Below are positions 13,036-50,646 of a DNA stretch of 64,000 nucleotides, piece by piece. The stretch spans positions 620,001-684,000 of the forward strand of contig NZ_FNPZ01000003.1 in assembly GCF_900107435.1 (NCBI RefSeq). The letters are read 5' to 3'. The notes under the pieces were generated by a model, which worked only from the letters and a program-made list of their open reading frames with translations, was not told where the DNA came from and searched no databases. Numbering within the stretch: position 1 is the stretch's first letter; each line of letters opens with the position of its first letter. The position numbers were made by a program, and so were the translations under genes. Source of the DNA: Herbiconiux ginsengi. Lineage in GTDB: Bacteria; Actinomycetota; Actinomycetes; Actinomycetales; Microbacteriaceae.

Positions 13036-14037
13036 ATGTCGAACATTCAGGTCGGCTACGCCGCGATGCTGGAGCAGTTCCATCCGAGCGAAGCCGTCGC
13101 CCTCTCGGCCTACGCCGAGGAGCACGGGTTCAGCGGGGTGATGGCGGCCGATCACTTCCAGCCCTGGGTTCCGCGCCAGGGTCAGTCGTCGTTCGTCTGG
13201 AACGTGCTCGCCGCGGTGGGGGAGCGCACGCGGGGCGATTTCGGGCCGGGCGTGACCTCGCCGAGCTTTCGCTGGCATCCAGCCATGGTGGCGCAGGCGT
13301 CGGCCACGCTCGGAGCGATGTATCCCGGTCGGCACTGGCTCGGGCTCGGGTCGGGCGAGGCGCTCAACGAGCACATCGTGGGCGGCTACTGGCCCGAGGC
13401 GCCGGAGCGCATCAACCGCATGTTCGAGGCCGTCGACGTCATCAACAAGCTGTTCACCGCGTCGCTGGCCGGCAAAGACGTGAAGCACTCGGGCACGTTC
13501 TTCAAGCTGGAGTCGACCCGGGTGTGGACGATGCCCGAACAGGCGCCCGAGATCCTGGTCGCCACGGCGGGTCCCGTCACCGCCCGGCGGGCCGGGCGCA
13601 CGGTCGACGGGCTGATCACCGTGGGCGCGCCGCTGGAGAAGATCTCCGGGCTGTTCACGAAGTTCGACGAGGGGGCGCGCGAAGCGGGCAAAGATCCGTC
13701 GACGATGCCTCGGGTGCTGCAGTTGCACCTGTCCTGGGCGCCCACCGACGAGGAGGCCATGGCCAACGCGCTGCGGGAGTGGCCGAACGGCGGCATGCGT
13801 TTTCCGAAGGCCGACATCCGGAGCCCCTTCGAATTCGAGCAGATGGCCAAGATGGTGCGGCCGGAGGACTTCGAGGGGCGTCTCGTGATCTCGAGCGACC
13901 CGGATGCGCATCGCGCCCACATCCAGCGGTTCGCCGATCTCGGGTTCGACAAGATCTACCTGCACAACGTCGGCCGCAATCAGCGCGAGTGGATCGACGT
14001 GTTCGGCCGCGACGTGCTCCCGAAGCTGCACCGATGA
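13036..14037 (+). CDS. F420-dependent LLM oxidoreductase (glucose-6-phosphate dehydrogenase-like)
   Basis: Luciferase-like TIM-barrel enzyme, 333 aa, of the subfamily that includes F420-dependent glucose-6-phosphate dehydrogenase. Visible: [19 protein letters not shown] (about residues 35-53), [14 protein letters not shown], and the cofactor-binding [12 protein letters not shown] (about 104-115). This subfamily uses F420 for hydride transfer. The substrate is not certain; glucose-6-phosphate is the best-known example. The ATG is preceded by GGAAGG, and its stop overlaps the ATG of cofE (ATGA), so an F420-using enzyme is co-translated with an F420-making one. Confidence 0.85.
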
Positions 14038-15143
14038 GCGGCGTCACGATCGTCGGCCTCGGCGGCCTCCCCGAGATCGAGGAGGGCGCCGATCTCGTGG
14101 CGCTGATCGGCGACGCGCTGGTGGCGGCGGAGCTGGGGCCGGCCGATGGCGACATCCTGGTGGTGACGAGCAAGATCCTGTCGAAGGCCGAGGGGCGTCG
14201 CATCGCGGCGGCCGACCGCGAAGACGCGATCACCGCCGAGACGGTGCGGGTGGTGGCCACGCGGGCCTATCCCGGTGGGGTGACCCGCATCGTCGAGAAC
14301 CGGCAGGGGATCGTGCAGGCCGCAGCCGGAGTCGACTCGAGCAACACGCCGTCGGGAACGGTGCTGCTGCTGCCGGTCGATCCGGATGCGTCGGCGCGTG
14401 CTCTTGCCGCCGGGCTGCGGTCGCGGTTCGGGGTGCGGCTCGGGGTCATCGTGTCCGACACGCTCGGCCGCGCCTGGCGCGAGGGCCAGGTCGACCTCGC
14501 GATCGGCGCCGCCGGAGTGAACGTGCTCGACGACCTCAGGGGCAGCCGAGACAGTTTCGGGCAGGAGCTGTTCGTGACGCAGGCGGCCGTCGGCGACGAA
14601 CTCGCCTCCGCCGCCGATCTGGTGAAGGGCAAGGCGAGCGGGATGCCGGTGGCTCTGGTGCGTGGCTACGGTCACGCCGTGGTCGACACCCTCGACACGC
14701 CCGCGCGTGCGCTCAGCCGCACGGGCGAGAAAGACATGTTCCGGCTCGGCACCGACGAGGCGATCGCCCTCGGCCGCGAAGAGGGTCGTGCGGAGGGTCG
14801 TGCGGCCGCGCTGGCGGAGGCGGCTGACGAGGCGCGGGCGCTTGCCGCGGCTCGTGAGGCTGAGCTCGCCGAGGCGCGTGCGGCCGCTCTCGCGGAGGTG
14901 CGGGCTGAGGCGTTGGCTGAGCTGCGTGGTGATGAGGCGCTGGCACGCGAGAACGAGACAGCCCTGGCAGCGGCCCAGGAAGCGGCGTTCACCGAGGGGC
15001 GGCGTGCCGGTCTGACCGAGGGGTGGGAAGCGGGCTATGCCGAGGGGCGCTCGGCCGGGCTCCTCGACGGTCGCGAATCGGGCTTCACCGAGGGCTACGA
15101 GCGGGGTCTCGCGGAGGGCTGGGCTCGCGGTCTCGACTGCTGA
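14034..15143 (+). CDS. cofE: Coenzyme F420:L-glutamate ligase with a Gly-X3 repeat tail
   Basis: Adds glutamates to F420-0. The first ~250 residues are a normal CofE domain ([59 protein letters not shown]). After that, instead of the FMN reductase domain found in mycobacterial FbiB, there is an Ala/Glu/Arg-rich helical segment (about residues 245-318), then twelve glycines spaced exactly four apart, Gly322 to Gly366 (for example [17 protein letters not shown]). Total 369 aa against roughly 250 for simple CofE. Cysteine is the last residue. ATG 14034 overlaps the stop of the LLM gene. Confidence 0.9.
14997..15131 (+). repeat. Coding repeat for the twelve-fold Gly-X3 tail of CofE
   Basis: In-frame 12-base periodicity placing a glycine codon every fourth position (14997 to 15131), with acidic, alanine and aromatic residues between. 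This is the same spacing as the 'deca-GX3' motif of eukaryotic Yae1/Lto1 proteins and the GxxxG-type helices of FliH-like proteins. Confidence 0.85.
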
Positions 15144-18281: not shown

Positions 18282-18968
18282 GTGAGCGACATCCGACAGA
18301 CCTGGACCGTGGTGGTTCCCGTGAAGGGAACCGCCGCCGGCAAGACCCGGATGGCGCCCGGCCTCGATCAGCGGCAACGGATGCTCCTCGTCGAGGCCTT
18401 CGCGCTCGACGCCGTCTCGGCGCTCTCCGCCTCGGCGCTGGTCGACCGGGTGATCGTGGTGACGGATGCCGCGGCCGAGCTCTCCGGCTCGTTGCGCGCT
18501 CTCGGGGCCGACATCGTCGCCGATCCGGGCGCGGGTCTCAACGCGGCCGTGGCGGCCGGGATCGAGGCGGCTCGCGCCACGCGCGCGGCTCGCGCCGAGG
18601 CTGTCGACGGGCGCGCCGCCGCCACATCTGGCGTCGACGCAGGCGTGGCCGTCGCCGCCCTGCTCGGCGACCTCCCGTGCCTCGTGACGGCCGACGTCGA
18701 TGACGCGCTCACCCGCGCCTCGGCGCATCCGCTCGCCGTGGTGCCCGATGCCGAGGGCGGCGGCACGACGCTCATCACCGCCCTGCCCGGCATCGCATTG
18801 GTGCCGCGCTTCGGCGTCGGGTCGGCCGCCCGGCACGCGGCGGCCGGCCATGTGGTGCTCGACGTCCCTCCCGCCTCGACGCTGCGACTCGACGTCGACA
18901 CCGAGGAGGATCTCGCGGCGGCCCTGTCTCGCGGCGTCGGACCGCACACGCGAGCCGTCTGGGCCTGA
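18282..18968 (+). CDS. cofC: 2-phospho-L-lactate/PEP guanylyltransferase (F420 synthesis)
   Basis: Activates the phospho-acid (phosphoenolpyruvate in actinobacteria, 2-phospholactate in archaea) with GTP, giving the donor used by CofD. MobA-like nucleotidyltransferase fold: WTVVVPVKGTAAGKTRM (about residues 8-24) is the CofC signature, LLGDLPCL the metal-binding loop, and PRFGVGSAARHAAAG the conserved C-terminal motif. 228 aa, normal length, with an Ala/Arg-rich insert near residues 95-115. Divergent from the hexapeptide-repeat gene; probably leaderless. Confidence 0.9.
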   Translation: MSDIRQTWTVVVPVKGTAAGKTRMAPGLDQRQRMLLVEAFALDAVSALSASALVDRVIVVTDAAAELSGSLRALGADIVADPGAGLNAAVAAGIEAARATRAARAEAVDGRAAATSGVDAGVAVAALLGDLPCLVTADVDDALTRASAHPLAVVPDAEGGGTTLITALPGIALVPRFGVGSAARHAAAGHVVLDVPPASTLRLDVDTEEDLAAALSRGVGPHTRAVWA

Positions 18969-25498: not shown

Positions 25499-28150
25499 CT
25501 ACGCCATGGGGAGGAGGCGCAGCGACTTGCCGGTGGCCGCGAATCCGCGCGACGCGAACTCGCGGGCGACCGCCACGCGCTCGGGGGTGGGACGCCCGTA
25601 GGTCGTGGTGCGCTGCACGGGGGTGCGCCCGATCTCGGCGATCATGCGCTCCAGCTCGTCGACCGTCTTCTCCGAGCCGTTGTCGGCGCCGGCCATGCGG
25701 CTGATCGTCTCCTCCATCAGGGTGCCGCCGAGGTCGTCGGCACCGCCCTGCAGCATCTGCTGGGTTCCGCCGTTGCCGAGCTTCACCCAGGAGGTCTGCA
25801 CGTGGTCGATCCGCCCGTGCAGCATGAGCCGCGACACCGCGTGGATGGCCCGGTTCTCCTGCACCGTCGGCCCCGGCCGCGCCACACCGGCGAGGTAGAC
25901 GGGGGAGTTCATGTGGATGAACGGCAGCAGCACGAACTCGGTGAACCCGCCCGTCTCGTCCTGGATGCGCGAGAGCGTGCGCAGGTGCCCCACCCAGTGC
26001 GTGGGGTTGTCGACGTGCCCGTACATCATGGTCGACGACGAACGCAGCCCCACCGAATGCGCGGTGGAGACGATCTCGATCCACTGCGCCGCGGGCAGTT
26101 TGCCCTTGGTGAGCACCCAGCGCACGTCGTCGTCGAGGATCTCGGCGGCCGTGCCCGGAATGGTGTCGAGCCCCGCCGCCTTCGCCTCGAGCAGGAAGTC
26201 CCGGAACGACAGCCCCGTACGGGCCGCCCCGTTCACGATCTCCATCGGGCTGAACGCGTGCAGGTGGATGTCGGGCTGCCGCTGCTTCACCGTGCGCGCC
26301 AGATCGAAGTAGGCGGTGCCCGGCAGGTCGGGGTGGATGCCGCCCTGCATGCAGATCTCGGTGGCCCCGATCGACCAGGCCTCGTCGACGCGGTCGCCGA
26401 CCTGCTCCATCGACAGGGTGTAGGCGTCCGCGTCGTTTCGGCGCTGTGCGAAGGCGCAGAACCGGCAGCCCGTGTAGCAGACGTTCGTGAAGTTGATGTT
26501 GCGGTTCACGACGTAGCCCACCTCGTCGCCGACGGTGGCGCGCCGCACCTCGTCGGCGAGGGCGGCGAGGGCTTCGAGGTCGGGGCCGTCGGCGCCGAGC
26601 AGCGTGAGGTACTCGGCATCCGTGAGTCCGGCGGGGTCGACGGATGCTCGCAGCAGCGCCGAACGCACCGCCGGGTCGCCGGATGCGCGGGTGGCGTTGG
26701 CGGCGTTGGCCCCGACGTGCTCGCGCAGCTCGGACCAGTCGCCGTAGACGTCGTCGAAGTCGCTGCGGCGGTCGCCCGTGCGCCCGATCGTGTCGATCTC
26801 GGTGTGGAGCTCCGTGCGACCGGAGCCCGACGAGCCCCACTCCGGTTCTTGCCACGGCAGGCCGACCGGGATGCGACTCTCGACGGCCAGCCCGTCTTCC
26901 GACGCGAGCGCCCGCACGTGCGGCAGCACCCGCGGGTCGATCCACGGCTCCTCGGCGCGCACGAAGTGCGGATGCGCGGTGAGCCGCTCGCGCAGGGTGA
27001 ACCCTGCCTCGGCGGTGAGCCGCGCCAGGTCGTCGATGTGCGGCCACGGCCGTTCGGGGTTCACGTGATCGGGCGTGAGCGGCGACACGCCGCCCCAGTC
27101 GTCGATGCCGGCGCGCACGAGCAGCGACAGCTCGCGCGCATCCGTGAGGTTCGGCGGAGCCTGGATGCGCGCCTTCGGCCCCAGCACCAGTCGCGCCACG
27201 GCAACCGCGGCCACGTACTCCTGCGTCTCCAGGTCGTCGGCGCCCATCATCGCGGTGGCCGGCTTCGCCCGGAAGTTCTGGACGATGACCTCCTGCACGT
27301 GCCCGTGCCGACGCGCGGCCGAACGGATGGCGAACATCCCGTCGACCCGCTCCTCGTAGTTCTCGCCGATACCGAGCAGCAGCCCCGTGGTGAAGGGTAC
27401 GTTCGAACGCCCCGCATCTTCGAGCACGCGCAGGCGCAGCGCCGGATCTTTGTCGGGCGAACCGAAGTGGGCGTTGCCCTTCTCGGTCCAGAGCCGGGTC
27501 GCGGTGGTCTCGAGCATCATGCCCATCGAGGGCGCCACCGGCTTCAGCCGCTGGATCTCCTCCCAGGTCATCACGCCGGGGTTGAGGTGGGGGAGGAGGC
27601 CGGTCTCCTCGAGCACCCGGATGGCCATGGCGCGGAGGTAGGCGATGGTGGAGTCGTAGCCGTGCGCATCCAGCCACTCGCGGGCGGCGGGCCAGCGGTC
27701 TTCGGGGCGGTCGCCGAGGGTGAAGAGCGCCTCCTTGCAGCCGAGCGCCGCGCCCTGGCGCGCGACTTCGAGCACCTCGTCGGGCGACATGAAGGGAGCC
27801 TTGCCCTGCTTGGCGAGGCCGCCCGGCGTCTGCACGAAGGTGCAGTAGTGGCAGCGGTCGCGGCAGAGGTGCGTGAGCGGGATGAACACCTTGCGCGAGT
27901 AGGTGATGACGCCCGGGCGACCGGCGATCTCGAGCCCCGCATCCCGCACCCGGGAAGCGGCCGTGAGCAGCCGGTCGAGGTCGTCGCCGCGCGCGTGCAG
28001 CAGCGTCTCCGCCTCCGTGGCGTTCAGCGAGACGCCCTCGTCGGCGCGTTTCAGCGCCCGGCGGATCGCGGAGGCGTTCGGCACGAAGGCCTGCACGATC
28101 GGCTGCGGTTCGGCCTTGCGACGGGTGGGGGTGGGCAGATCAGCAGGCAT
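25499..28150 (-). CDS. fbiC: F0 synthase, CofG-CofH fusion (7,8-didemethyl-8-hydroxy-5-deazariboflavin synthase)
   Basis: Builds the deazaflavin chromophore F0 of coenzyme F420 from tyrosine and 5-amino-6-ribitylamino-uracil. 883 aa with two radical-SAM halves: the CofG-type half carries [10 protein letters not shown] (about residues 81-90) and the CofH-type half [10 protein letters not shown] (about 560-569), each a CX3CX2C iron-sulfur site; [10 protein letters not shown] and [15 protein letters not shown] are further family segments. ATG 28150 is taken as start (CGAGG upstream); an in-frame start at 28300 would run through the divergent promoter region. Stands alone, divergent from guanine deaminase. 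Confidence 0.95.
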
Positions 28151-28305
28151 GGGCGACGACCTCGAAGTATCGAAAGAGATAAGAAGAGAGCAGGGCCCAA
28201 AGCCAGACCCAGAACCAGAATAGAACGAGCCTACCCCCTGTTCTGGAGCACGATCGAACCACCCGCCCCCGGGGTCGCTGTGGCACGATGGCCCCATCAC
28301 GACGA

Positions 28306-31192: not shown

Positions 31193-32206
31193 TCAGTGAA
31201 GTGCGGCGGCGAGGGCGTCGGAGGCGAGCTGAGCACTGGTCGCGGGGTCGCGCATCCAGAGCGGAACGACGGAGGTGCGGATGCCGGCCGCCTCGAGAAC
31301 CGGGGCGCTCACCGCATCCGTCTCATCGACGAGCCACGCGTCGAGGAGGCCGTTGCTGGAGCGCTGGCGCGAGCCGTAATGCTTCGCCACGGCGGCGGCC
31401 GTGGTCTCCACGCCGATGGCGGTGAGGCACGCGTCGGCGTAGCCGCGCACGGCGGAGCCCGAGATGATCGGGGAGACGCCCACGATCGGGGCCCGGGCCG
31501 CTCGGAGAGCCGAGCGCACCCCGTTGACGCCGAGGATGGTGCCGATCGACACGACGGGGTTGGAGGGCGCCAACAGGATGACGTCGGCGTGCTCGATGGC
31601 GTGCAGCACCTGTGGCGTGGGCTTGGCGGCATCCACGCCGACCTGGATGAAGCGCTGCGCGGGCACGTTCGCGCGGTACTTCACCCACCACTCCTCGAAA
31701 TGCACGATCTTGCGCTGGCCGTCGACCTCGATGGCCACGTGGGTCTCCACGGGCTGGTCGCTCATCGGCAGCAGGCGCACCCCGGGGTTCCAGCGTTCCG
31801 CGAGGCGGGCGGTGGCTTCGGTGAGGGTGAGGCCGTCGCGGAGAAAGCTGGAGCGGGCGATGTGGGTGCCGAGATCGAGGTCGCCGAGCGTGAACCAAGG
31901 CCAGCCGACGCCGTAGGCGGTGAGTTCGGCGCTCACACGCTCGCTCTCGTCCTTCCGGCCCCAGCCGCGCTCGTCGTCGTTGGCGCCGCCGAGGGTGTAC
32001 ATGATCGAGTCGAGGTCGGGGCACACCCGGAGCCCGGTCAGCCACATGTCGTCGCCGGTGTTCACCACCGCGGTGATCTCGGCGGTCGAGCCGCCGTCGC
32101 CGTTCGGATACCGCGACCTCAGGTGCGTGCGCAGCCCCCGCAGGAACCGTGCCCCTCCGACGCCGCCCGCGAGAACCGTAACCTTCACGCCCCCATTCAA
32201 CCCCAT
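31193..32206 (-). CDS. cofD: 2-phospho-L-lactate (or enolpyruvyl) transferase, F420 synthesis
   Basis: Transfers the activated phospho-acid from the CofC product onto F0, giving (dehydro-)F420-0. Signature segments: VTVLAGGVGGARFLRGL (about residues 9-25), VVNTGDDMWLTGLRVCPDLD, LGDLDLGTHIARS, LLAPSNPVVSIGTIL (about 211-225) and VGVSPIISGSAVRG. 337 aa from ATG 32206; GTG 32188 with GGGGG upstream is an alternative that removes six residues. Called fbiA in mycobacteria. Unlike mycobacteria, it is not next to the ligase gene. Confidence 0.93.
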   Translation of the reverse strand: MGLNGGVKVTVLAGGVGGARFLRGLRTHLRSRYPNGDGGSTAEITAVVNTGDDMWLTGLRVCPDLDSIMYTLGGANDDERGWGRKDESERVSAELTAYGVGWPWFTLGDLDLGTHIARSSFLRDGLTLTEATARLAERWNPGVRLLPMSDQPVETHVAIEVDGQRKIVHFEEWWVKYRANVPAQRFIQVGVDAAKPTPQVLHAIEHADVILLAPSNPVVSIGTILGVNGVRSALRAARAPIVGVSPIISGSAVRGYADACLTAIGVETTAAAVAKHYGSRQRSSNGLLDAWLVDETDAVSAPVLEAAGIRTSVVPLWMRDPATSAQLASDALAAALH

Positions 32207-48845: not shown

Positions 48846-50646
48846 GCGCGGGCTGCCCGCCGAGGCCGGCGCGGGTGCCCCCGTCGAGGCGCTCCCGGCC
48901 GGCGTGACCTCGCTCGACGGGGCCGGCATCCTGTCGTCGGTGGCACTCGACGAGGTGCTCGCGGCGTTCCGCGGGTACGAAGCGGCACTCATGGCGAACG
49001 ATCTCGACGCGCTCGACCGGTGGTTCGCGCCCGGACCGGCGACCCTGCGGGGCGACGCCTCCGGGCTGCTCGTGGGTCACGACCGCATCAGCGCGTTCCG
49101 GAGCCTCCGCGGGGGCGTGCCGCCGCGCACGATCGTCGAGCTGCACCTGCGGGTGCTCGACCCGGCCTCGGTTCTCGTGGTCTCGGTCAGCGCCTTCGCG
49201 AAGGGCGGCACCGGGCTGCAGACCCAGCTCTGGCGGCGGAGTCCGGATGCCGCGGGCTGGACGATCGCGGCCGCCCACGTCACCGGCGCGGCGCCCGCCG
49301 TGAACGGCGCCGTCTGGCGCGTCGTGGGCGCGCCGCTCCTGCCGCCGCATCCCATGGGCACGAATGATGCCACTTCGGCGCACGAGCGACCATTCGTGTC
49401 CGCGCGATCGAGTGAGGGCGTGTTGGCTGGGCTGAGTGTGGCGGTGAAAGACCTGTACGAGGTGGCGGGGTTCGCCGTGGGGGCGGGCGTGCCCGCGTTC
49501 CTCGCCGAGGCGACGCTCGCGGCGGCCGACGCGGACGCCGTCGCGGCGCTGCGGGCGGCGGGCGCGTCGGTGCAGGGGATCGCGCAGACCGACGAGTTCG
49601 CCTACAGCATCGCCGGGCGCAACGTGCACTACGGAACCCCGCCGAACCCCGCCGTGCCGGGAGCGATTCCCGGTGGCTCGTCGAGCGGTCCGGCGGCGGC
49701 GGTCGCGCTCGGGCAGGCCGCCATCGGGTTGTCGACCGACACGGGCGGATCGATCCGGGTGCCGGCCTCGTATCAGGGGCTGTGGGGACTGCGCACGACG
49801 CACGGGTCGGTGAGCGCCCGCGGACTGCTGCCGCTCGCCCCCTCGTTCGACACGATCGGCTGGATCACGCGCTCGCCGCAGACCCTCCGCGCCGCCTCGG
49901 CGGCGACGTTCGCGGGCGCCCCCGGCCCGACGCCCGTCGGCGGGGGTGGGCCTGGTGACGGGGTGGCTGCCGACGTGGTGGGCGGAGGCGCGCAGGGCAG
50001 CACCGCCGACGGCGGGCAGCCGGGGGCGGGAGCGCCGAGCGCGCTCGAACCGCGATACGTCGTCTCGGCCGACCTGGTGTCGAGCTGCGACGACGACGTG
50101 CAGGCGGCGTTCGGAGCGCTGGTCGCGCATCCGGTGTTCGGGCAGGTCGAGAGCGTCGACCTGGGCGACCTCGACGACGTGTTCGCCGGCTTCCGGACGG
50201 TGCAGGGTGCTGAGGCCTGGCGGAGCCACGGGGAGTGGGTGGCGGCGCATCCGGGTGTGCTCGGAGCCGACATCGCCGAGCGGTTCGACATCGCCTCCCG
50301 CATCACGGCTGCCGAGGAGACGGATGCACGGGCGCGACTCGCGGAGGCCCGGGCCCGCTTCGACGCCGTGCTCGCCGGACGCATCCTGCTGCTTCCGTCG
50401 GCGTCGTCGCCGGCGCCGGCGCTCGACGCCCCGCCCGAGGTGATCGGCGCGGCCCGGGCGGCGACGTTGCGGATGACCGCCGTCGCGGGAACGGGCGGCT
50501 ATCCCGCCGTGTCGGCGCCGCTCATGCGCGTGCCGGCTCCGGGAGGGTCTGCGCCCGTGGGGCTCTGCTTCGTCGGCGCGCGGGGTGCTGACCTCGCGCT
50601 GCTCGACCTGGCCGCGGGAGTCGCCGAGGTGCTGGCAGGGGAGTGA
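48838..50646 (+). CDS. AtzH-like domain / amidase-signature fusion enzyme
   Basis: 602 aa. N-terminal ~135-residue SnoaL/DUF3225 (AtzH/HpxZ-like) domain: LAAFRGYEAALMANDLDALD, LRGDASGLLVGHDRISAFRS. Then an amidase-signature domain with the Ser-cisSer-Lys triad: Lys in LSVAVKDLYEVAGF (about residue 204), cis-Ser in PGGSSSGPAAAVA (about 281), nucleophile in STDTGGSIRVPASYQG (about 304). In AtzE/AtzH and HpxY/HpxZ systems these parts are separate proteins. Gly-rich insert near residues 365-400. GTG 48838 overlaps the FmdA stop. Likely hydrolyses oxalurate or a related ureide. Confidence 0.82.
   Translation: MAERGLPAEAGAGAPVEALPAGVTSLDGAGILSSVALDEVLAAFRGYEAALMANDLDALDRWFAPGPATLRGDASGLLVGHDRISAFRSLRGGVPPRTIVELHLRVLDPASVLVVSVSAFAKGGTGLQTQLWRRSPDAAGWTIAAAHVTGAAPAVNGAVWRVVGAPLLPPHPMGTNDATSAHERPFVSARSSEGVLAGLSVAVKDLYEVAGFAVGAGVPAFLAEATLAAADADAVAALRAAGASVQGIAQTDEFAYSIAGRNVHYGTPPNPAVPGAIPGGSSSGPAAAVALGQAAIGLSTDTGGSIRVPASYQGLWGLRTTHGSVSARGLLPLAPSFDTIGWITRSPQTLRAASAATFAGAPGPTPVGGGGPGDGVAADVVGGGAQGSTADGGQPGAGAPSALEPRYVVSADLVSSCDDDVQAAFGALVAHPVFGQVESVDLGDLDDVFAGFRTVQGAEAWRSHGEWVAAHPGVLGADIAERFDIASRITAAEETDARARLAEARARFDAVLAGRILLLPSASSPAPALDAPPEVIGAARAATLRMTAVAGTGGYPAVSAPLMRVPAPGGSAPVGLCFVGARGADLALLDLAAGVAEVLAGE

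Follow-up and report, generated by a model that had tools for sequence, protein, structure and literature searches.

A putative glycine-zipper tail on the F420:glutamate ligase CofE of Herbiconiux and related actinobacteria

Introduction

Helices with glycine at every fourth position (GX3 or GxxxG repeats; x1, x2 and x3 denote the positions that follow each glycine) have been described in three systems that bear on the present work. The Yae1/Lto1 adaptors (PF09811) carry 10–12 consecutive GX3 units (PMC4523923) and, as stated in that paper's treatment of the motif, mutation of the deca-GX3 glycines of yeast Lto1 reduces complex formation with Yae1. In FliH, the x1 positions of the repeats are taken by Tyr or Phe in more than 45%, by Leu in 15% and by Arg or Lys in about 15%, and the x3 positions by Glu, Gln or Ala in about two thirds, according to the passages on composition in Trost and Moore 2009 (PMC2674601). 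The same paper regards GxxxG repeats that are both long and soluble as presumably quite uncommon in nature and, in its passages on these repeats, gives no mechanism for their evolution and reports no helix in the PDB in which more than three repeats directly follow one another. The YG box of SMN (the "YG zipper"; PDB 4GLI, 4RG5) is a soluble C-terminal helix with glycine at each fourth residue, in which, by the account in the structural part of PMC8287954, each Tyr rests against the main chain of the i+3 glycine in the opposite helix, with the glycines of the two helices facing each other. On the enzymatic side, the closest described system is FbiB, which combines the same ligase domain as CofE with an FMN nitroreductase; the relevant statements in PMC8498797 are that a cofE-fbiE fusion is found in Actinobacteria and that the C-terminal domain of FbiB is an intertwined dimer.

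Here we analyze a CofE encoded in a 64,000-nucleotide stretch of the Herbiconiux ginsengi genome (contig NZ_FNPZ01000003.1, positions 620,001–684,000; hereinafter, the window). Its C-terminal tail is a GX3/YG-zipper-like helix on a cofactor ligase, a new setting for a known type of helix, for which oligomerization is the most likely role. The original prediction, made from the window sequence, held that no CofE with such a module was known. This statement fits the open-licence PMC literature, where we found no paper joining F420, Microbacteriaceae and CofE, none on GxxxG with F420 that was related by title and, for a CofE "C-terminal extension" with F420, only a methanogen genome paper by title; among sequences, however, the module is common, being present in all 16 CofEs of the genus and in many of the order.

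Results

A CofE in an F420 gene neighborhood

The window protein scores 219.8 bits against the CofE model TIGR01916 (curated cut-off, 180.65), its ligase domain is also matched by PF01996, and a model of the whole protein retrieves the A. fulgidus CofE structures (2phn, E 2.5e-22, Foldseek; encapsulin entries in the same output, with E values of at least 1.3, were disregarded). By profile and fold, the protein is a CofE, with putative ligation of glutamate to F420-0. The start codon of cofE overlaps the stop codon of the upstream LLM gene (ATGA). The coordinates of cofE, of the parts of its product and of the associated genes are given in Table 1; the presence of cofC, fbiC and cofD in the window rules out a missing F420 pathway.

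Table 1 Features of the window considered in this work
Feature	Coordinates	Strand	Remarks
cofE, coenzyme F420-0:L-glutamate ligase with C-terminal tail	14034..15143	+	369 aa; TIGR01916; Foldseek 2phn
Catalytic CofE domain, residues 1-237	14034..14744	+	Same end point (...DLFR) in both archaeal CofEs read
Seed, residues 234-258	14733..14807	+	Small residue at each fourth position: G239, A243, G247, G251, G255
Variable Ala/Glu/Arg helical spacer (predicted), residues 259-317	14808..14984	+	
GX3 cassette, residues 318-369	14985..15140	+	Ala318, twelve Gly 322-366, terminal Cys369
LLM-class (F420/FMN) oxidoreductase	13036..14037	+	Adjoins cofE; without tail
cofC/fbiD-like guanylyltransferase	18306..18950	+	TIGR03552, 115.8 bits vs cut-off 105 (G000:C4:638306-638950)
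fbiC (CofGH), FO synthase	25499..28300	-	NF006687, 1474.3 bits
cofD/fbiA	31193..32206	-	TIGR01819, 346.9 bits vs 257.45

Although these F420 genes are present, no FbiB C-terminal domain or FbiE dehydro-F420 reductase was found in the whole genome. The best matches to the FbiB C-terminal model TIGR03553 score 24, 14.5 and 12.1 bits, against a cut-off of 249.55, and all three were rejected as the reductase.

The tail had been suggested as a possible oligomerization or adaptor surface that gathers F420 enzymes, for example the co-translated LLM oxidoreductase. An LLM gene adjoins cofE in 13 of the 16 loci examined, at tails of 3 to 16 glycines alike (it was not found next to cofE in L010 and in the two archaea). 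Because this conserved adjacency is independent of tail length, recruitment of the LLM enzyme by the tail is unsupported, and we discarded it.

Anatomy of the tail

Translation of nucleotides 14034-15143 of the plus strand yields, exactly as had been predicted, glycines at residues 322, 326, 330 and on to 366, that is, twelve in strict period 4, followed by Leu-Asp-Cys at the protein end (...GLDC). When the last 52 residues were shuffled 200,000 times, the longest period-4 glycine run was 8 and a run of 12 was never reached; the same number of shuffles of the last 125 residues gave at most 7. Across the six frames of the window (stop-free stretches of at least 60 codons), the next longest run holds six glycines and lies in a stop-free stretch of 180 codons that begins at about position 49416 on the plus strand.

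The tail consists of three parts: a seed (residues 234-258), an Ala/Glu/Arg helix (about 259-317) and the GX3 cassette (318-369). The seed, which the original prediction had not mentioned, is a second, shorter and conserved GX3 stretch (residues 247, 251 and 255) that adjoins the CofE domain. A small residue (Gly or Ala) at each fourth position also runs through the spacer. In the nearest relative, G001 (L018), the small residues keep to one phase from end to end of the tail, filling 4 or 5 positions in every 5. The spacer of the window protein is 3 residues longer (369 versus 366 aa in total), and its tail shifts phase once, near residues 294-300. In periodicity tests that covered five stretches, three residue classes and four periods, with 2000 shuffles and uncorrected p values, the period-4 signal of small residues lay beyond all 2000 shuffles in the window cassette and in the tail of G001; the end of the seed plus the spacer of the window protein (residues 245-317) gave no significant period 4 for small residues (p 0.58), and this stretch contains the change of phase.

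In an AlphaFold2 monomer model of the window CofE, built from 16 sequences, residues 241-368 are predicted to form a single unbroken helix of 128 residues; pLDDT is below 50 at the join (230-247), 84-92 by blocks over 261-300 and 55-69 over 321-369. A second model, of the same-genus CofE L003, similarly contains one helix (242-331), with pLDDT below 50 in part of the GX3 run. The x1 residues of the window cassette are, in order, Arg, Leu, Trp, Tyr, Arg, Leu, Arg, Phe, Tyr, Leu and Trp, so that 3 of 11 are Arg.

Selection on the tail

Comparison of the window genome (G000) with G001 shows that all 12 glycines are kept and that 10 of the 12 Gly codons have changed, all synonymously. If each Gly codon is counted as having one synonymous site and two replacement sites, the 10 synonymous and 0 replacement changes depart from neutrality with a binomial p of 1.7e-5; the Gly codons also differ from the rest of the cassette (Fisher p 0.005, on rounded counts). 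The dN/dS ratio for this pair is 0.096 in the domain (residues 5-233), 0.117 in the cassette, 0.29 in the spacer and 0.023 in the seed, the last at near-saturated dS. A 435-aa minus-strand frame overlaps cofE, but the changes in the tail are mostly at third positions of the cofE frame, and an antisense gene was rejected.

The CofE shared by G008 and strain B27 is 317 aa long; its spacer is mostly absent, with a difference in spacer length of about 50 residues. The 52-residue cassette aligns without gaps in the window, G001 and B27/G008 proteins. Relative to the window, B27/G008 keeps 9 of the 12 glycines, the other three being replaced by Ala, Val and Ala. For the window and G008, dN/dS is 0.21 in the cassette and 0.08 in the seed; for G001 and G008, the values are 0.37 and 0.28 (21 codons in the seed). 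Thus, constraint on the cassette is weaker in both pairs with G008 than between G000 and G001.

A random low-complexity extension had been expected to be absent from close relatives and free of purifying selection. The outcome is the opposite: all 16 same-genus CofEs carry a GX3 run, and the cassette dN/dS is 0.117. A random tail as the sole explanation is ruled out by constraint at the codon level. The terminal Cys is confined to 3 of the 122 CofEs compared, namely, those of the window, G001 and B27/G008, and is found additionally in L152, which lies outside that set.

Tails among relatives and their position rules

The search of the family gave a match in 221 of 398 genomes (a few of these being weak matches other than CofE), and we read the CofEs of 64 genomes outside the genus, one or few per genus plus the best matches, along with all 16 of the genus. 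In the order, 133 of 198 genomes gave a match and 43 genomes outside the family were read; in the class, 163 of 197 gave a match and 23 outside the order were read, and 15 named loci were added. The comparison set comprises 122 distinct CofEs from the genus, the family, the order and two archaea; duplicates were removed, and so were L129 and L141, in which the frame runs off the stretch or contig, L152-L180, and L121, which has no D[MLW]F anchor and is 32% identical. The named relatives are Herbiconiux, Subtercola and Agreia. The CofE tails of several genomes of the genus are the same as those in named Herbiconiux records, which places the window in Herbiconiux or a very close neighbor within the Microbacteriaceae.

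All 16 genomes of the genus encode CofE, and the number of consecutive GX3 glycines ranges from 3 to 16 among them. Among the 122 CofEs, runs of at least 4 glycines occur in 31 and runs of at least 6 in 16; many CofEs carry only 1-3 GX3 glycines. Because so many relatives have as few as 2-3, the long cassette is unnecessary for CofE function in general. Among the 102 D[ML]F-type CofEs, the seed glycine (the G247 position) is present in 97, an Ala four residues earlier in 94, and a second glycine four residues later in 85. The five without the seed glycine are the two archaeal proteins, which stop at DLFR, and three from the order, which stop just behind it. Most of the single-domain CofEs read from the order end in the short seed LGTxEAxxxGxxxG. 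In 27 of the 31 CofEs with at least 4 glycines, the run starts exactly at the seed glycine; in the three proteins of the window clade and in L012, it starts later, behind a spacer.

The repeats follow position rules. Of the 178 units in these 31 runs, 82 have an aromatic residue at x1 and none has one at x2 or x3; the corresponding counts for the three positions are 1, 30 and 78 for acidic residues and 0, 111 and 71 for Ala. The x1 residue is Tyr in 31%, Arg in 30%, Leu in 12% and Phe in 11%. The aromatic rule also holds, at 37, 0 and 0, in the 88 units of 11 lineages that we picked by hand as independent. Because duplication of the seed would carry these rules along without any selection, their recurrence among the tails counts only in part as independent evidence. 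In three CofEs of the genus (L003, L014 and L030), the GX3 run ends in a TIARLEAALLALR-like, Leu-rich amphipathic stretch. Its large hydrophobic residues fit a period of 3.5 (p 0.038 for L003 and 0.001 for L014, the two tested, uncorrected), and periods of 3.6 and 3.67 fit about equally well; judging from these fits, the end stretch of L003 and L014 is an amphipathic helix rather than a heptad repeat.

Relation to FbiB and repeated lengthening of the seed

Outside the order, 21 of the 23 class-level CofEs run past the seed into a further stretch, for a total length of 405-466 aa; of the two exceptions, L178 is cut by the end of the stretch and L179 stops at 245 aa. None of the 23 has a GX3 run above 2. 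Three of these proteins were scanned, and in all three the extra part proved to be the C-terminal nitroreductase domain of FbiB (TIGR03553, 254.5-321.6 bits; PF00881); counted from the D of the seed, the domain begins 12, 16 and 20 residues on. The full-length FbiB model NF009810 aligns with the window CofE over profile positions 12-264 of 449 only (302.6 bits against a cut-off of 304). Thus, the window CofE shares with FbiB the ligase domain and the seed LGTxEA, which in FbiB is the stretch just before the nitroreductase, but a Pfam scan finds no nitroreductase domain in the window protein, where the seed is lengthened instead. The seed that in FbiB leads into the nitroreductase here leads into the tail, which therefore sits at the site of the reductase domain. 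That domain may have been lost in the window clade or gained in the others.

On a tree of the ligase domain, runs of at least 6 glycines require 12 changes of state, at least 8 of which are forced by the starred branches, on what is a quick tree with 46 of 119 inner branches open and with a cut at 6 glycines of our own choice. Randomly placed labels require 15.3 changes on average, and 1 of 500 shuffles was as low; this clustering implies that the long runs are partly shared by descent. The seed seems to have been lengthened several times, including in two other families of the order, where L138 has 13 glycines in near-exact YTQGRAEG repeats and L122 has 8, in a Tyr-rich tail. Since L122 lies beside an entry from the window's family on the tree (support 92), transfer is possible in its case.

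Comparison with described GX3 helices

The likeness of spacing to Yae1/Lto1 and FliH that had been pointed out from the sequence is upheld by a profile match and by the position rules; membership in either family beyond the repeat itself is not. Yae1_N (PF09811) matches the window CofE with 33.1 bits, over the gathering score of 27.5; of three Yae1_N matches in its genome, two are in CofE and one is weak, with only CofE over the cut-off, and none exceeds it in 14 control genomes. The other CofE tails scanned remain below this cut-off (L003, 21.4; L122, 23.2; L138, 19.2 bits). Unlike Lto1, the C-terminal Trp of which is described in PMC4523923 as binding the CIA targeting complex, CofE ends in Asp-Cys. 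By sequence, then, the likeness of the CofE tails to Yae1/Lto1 is one of repeat type.

The NCBIfam models of FliH reach at best 41 bits on the window CofE (cut-off, 180), in the repeat part only. The FliH-type pattern AxxxG(xxxG)m, with aromatic, Leu or Arg at x1 and Glu or Ala at x3, is present as A318 plus the 12 glycines, and holds across the 178 units. The CofE tails resemble the FliH/YscL repeats in variable m, in Tyr, Phe, Leu or Arg at x1 and Glu, Ala or Gln at x3, in the predicted helix and in the weak FliH matches; they differ in being located at the C-terminus of a cofactor ligase and in the more common Arg at x1. With the YG box of SMN, the tail shares the location in a C-terminal helix, the period of glycine and the aromatic residue or Leu directly after G, and thus i+3 before the next G; the motif GxxxGxxxG with aromatic or Leu at i and Gly at i+3 is present, at the motif level only. 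SMN has only three glycines, no sequence match between the two was found, and a dimer of the CofE tail is putative. A PDB sequence look-up with the cassette returned one low-complexity match (E 0.41), and one with a GX3 profile returned no like chain.

Discussion

We think that the tail is probably, though by no means certainly, a soluble stalk, a glycine zipper by which CofE subunits are held together, and that it grew from the joining helix of FbiB. GX3 with an aromatic x1 is the SMN YG spacing, and mutations of the Lto1 glycines weaken the Yae1 complex; from this, we infer a homotypic zipper, with its packing, its oligomeric state and a benefit to the cell. Oligomerization of CofE via the tail is plausible. 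A long helix would leave the C-terminal edge of the CofE domain, starting with the conserved small-x3 seed, pass through the length-variable Ala/Glu part and end in the 52-residue cassette with Gly at each fourth position. The bare glycine stripe would allow the backbones of two or more helices to come into direct contact, the bulky residue at x1 (Tyr, Phe, Trp, Leu or Arg) being placed against the partner's glycine three residues on, as in the SMN zipper. The role of the cassette would be to link CofE dimers into larger assemblies or to stabilize the dimer. It would have arisen by lengthening of the helix that joins the ligase to the reductase domain in FbiB; the latter domain being itself an intertwined dimer, one dimerizing module may have replaced another. 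By our own reckoning, a stripe with a period of 4 residues turns round a straight helix by about 40 degrees with every repeat, so that a dimer of two helices along all 12 repeats should not be taken for granted; the units might form a single tightly right-handed pair or cross several times in succession.

Among the alternatives, we consider it unlikely that the tail is a tolerated product of slippage, in which GC-rich 12- or 24-base units expand harmlessly at the C-terminus, with near-neutral length and with helix-forming, soluble residues kept. Tail length does vary widely within one genus (3 to 16 glycines), low-complexity spacers and an AAEAER-type array (in L012) exist, constraint is weaker in the pairs with G008, and some arrays are still repetitive in DNA, with a mean identity of the 12-base units of 81% in L014, 71% in L003 and 65% in L138; by DNA, those of L014 and L003 are young. 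The units of the window, however, are only 46% alike, with GGG, GGT and GGC used four times each; the glycines have persisted through heavy synonymous change, 10 to 0; and, in the comparison with G001, constraint on the cassette is close to that on the enzyme. Young arrays elsewhere together with diverged, constrained units in the window point to slippage as the likely supplier of new GX3 units and to selection as their keeper.

That the GX3 helix is an adaptor which binds another protein, such as an F420 enzyme, the missing dehydro-F420 reductase or a scaffold, in the way Yae1 binds Lto1, appears quite improbable to us. The Yae1_N match over the cut-off speaks for it, as do cofC, fbiC and cofD within about 18 kb and the precedent of Yae1 and Lto1 themselves, which, in the account of their complex in PMC4523923, pair through unlike deca-GX3 helices that are needed for complex formation; but the genome encodes no second protein over the Yae1_N cut-off, the LLM neighbor has no tail and adjoins cofE at any tail length, and the Lto1-like C-terminal Trp is missing. 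Still lower is the probability we attach to a simple spacer or solubility tail, for example, one that keeps the ligase away from another surface or, through crowding at the active site, controls how long the glutamate chain becomes. The one long helix that is predicted, with its Ala/Glu middle part of freely varying length, would suit such a role; left unexplained are the strict glycine period, the restriction of aromatics to x1 and the gap-free cassette.

The zipper-stalk reading admits a bolder form, which we regard as doubtful: the joining-helix stub of CofEs without a reductase domain might have turned, several times and independently, into a tunable bacterial YG-zipper of 3-16 repeats that assembles higher-order oligomers or filaments, an F420-finishing metabolon, with repeat number setting the size of the assembly and perhaps the length of the glutamate chain. 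Close relatives with 2-3 to 16 glycines, on an enzyme whose fold is known, provide a natural gradation of tail lengths in which the packing of GX3 helices and their evolution can be tested. If the zipper-stalk reading is true, an enzyme without a fused partner domain can use its joining helix as an assembly module.

Other tails and related loci

A further CofE, L152 (G155:C3:56194-57042), which enters none of the counts above, has 8 GX3 glycines besides its terminal Cys; its genome contains a second cofE copy about 2 kb away (G155:C3:53293-54036), and several other genomes of the family also give two cofE matches. L002 (BADC01000623.1), from "Corynebacterium-like bacterium B27", shares its CofE with G008, a genome of the window's genus, and is 92% identical to the window in the CofE domain and 93% in the LLM protein; the name looks wrong.

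In the Subtercola CofE L012, the tail of which is also found in L047, a long AAEAER array lies between the seed and a second GX3 run, and the make-up of this spacer differs from that in the window protein. The DWF-type CofEs of the order, including L103 and L118 (20 of the 122; 341-410 aa), continue for roughly 100 residues after the seed; in the two named proteins, which were scanned, there is no other Pfam family over the cut-off and no nitroreductase. L035 (403 aa) and L053 (385 aa) have some 130 residues after the seed that look alike by eye, and L035 matches only F420_ligase in Pfam. Finally, L072 (G191:C14:65674-67503) is a CofE of 496 aa in which, by eye, a CofC/FbiD guanylyltransferase appears to be fused directly behind the short seed.
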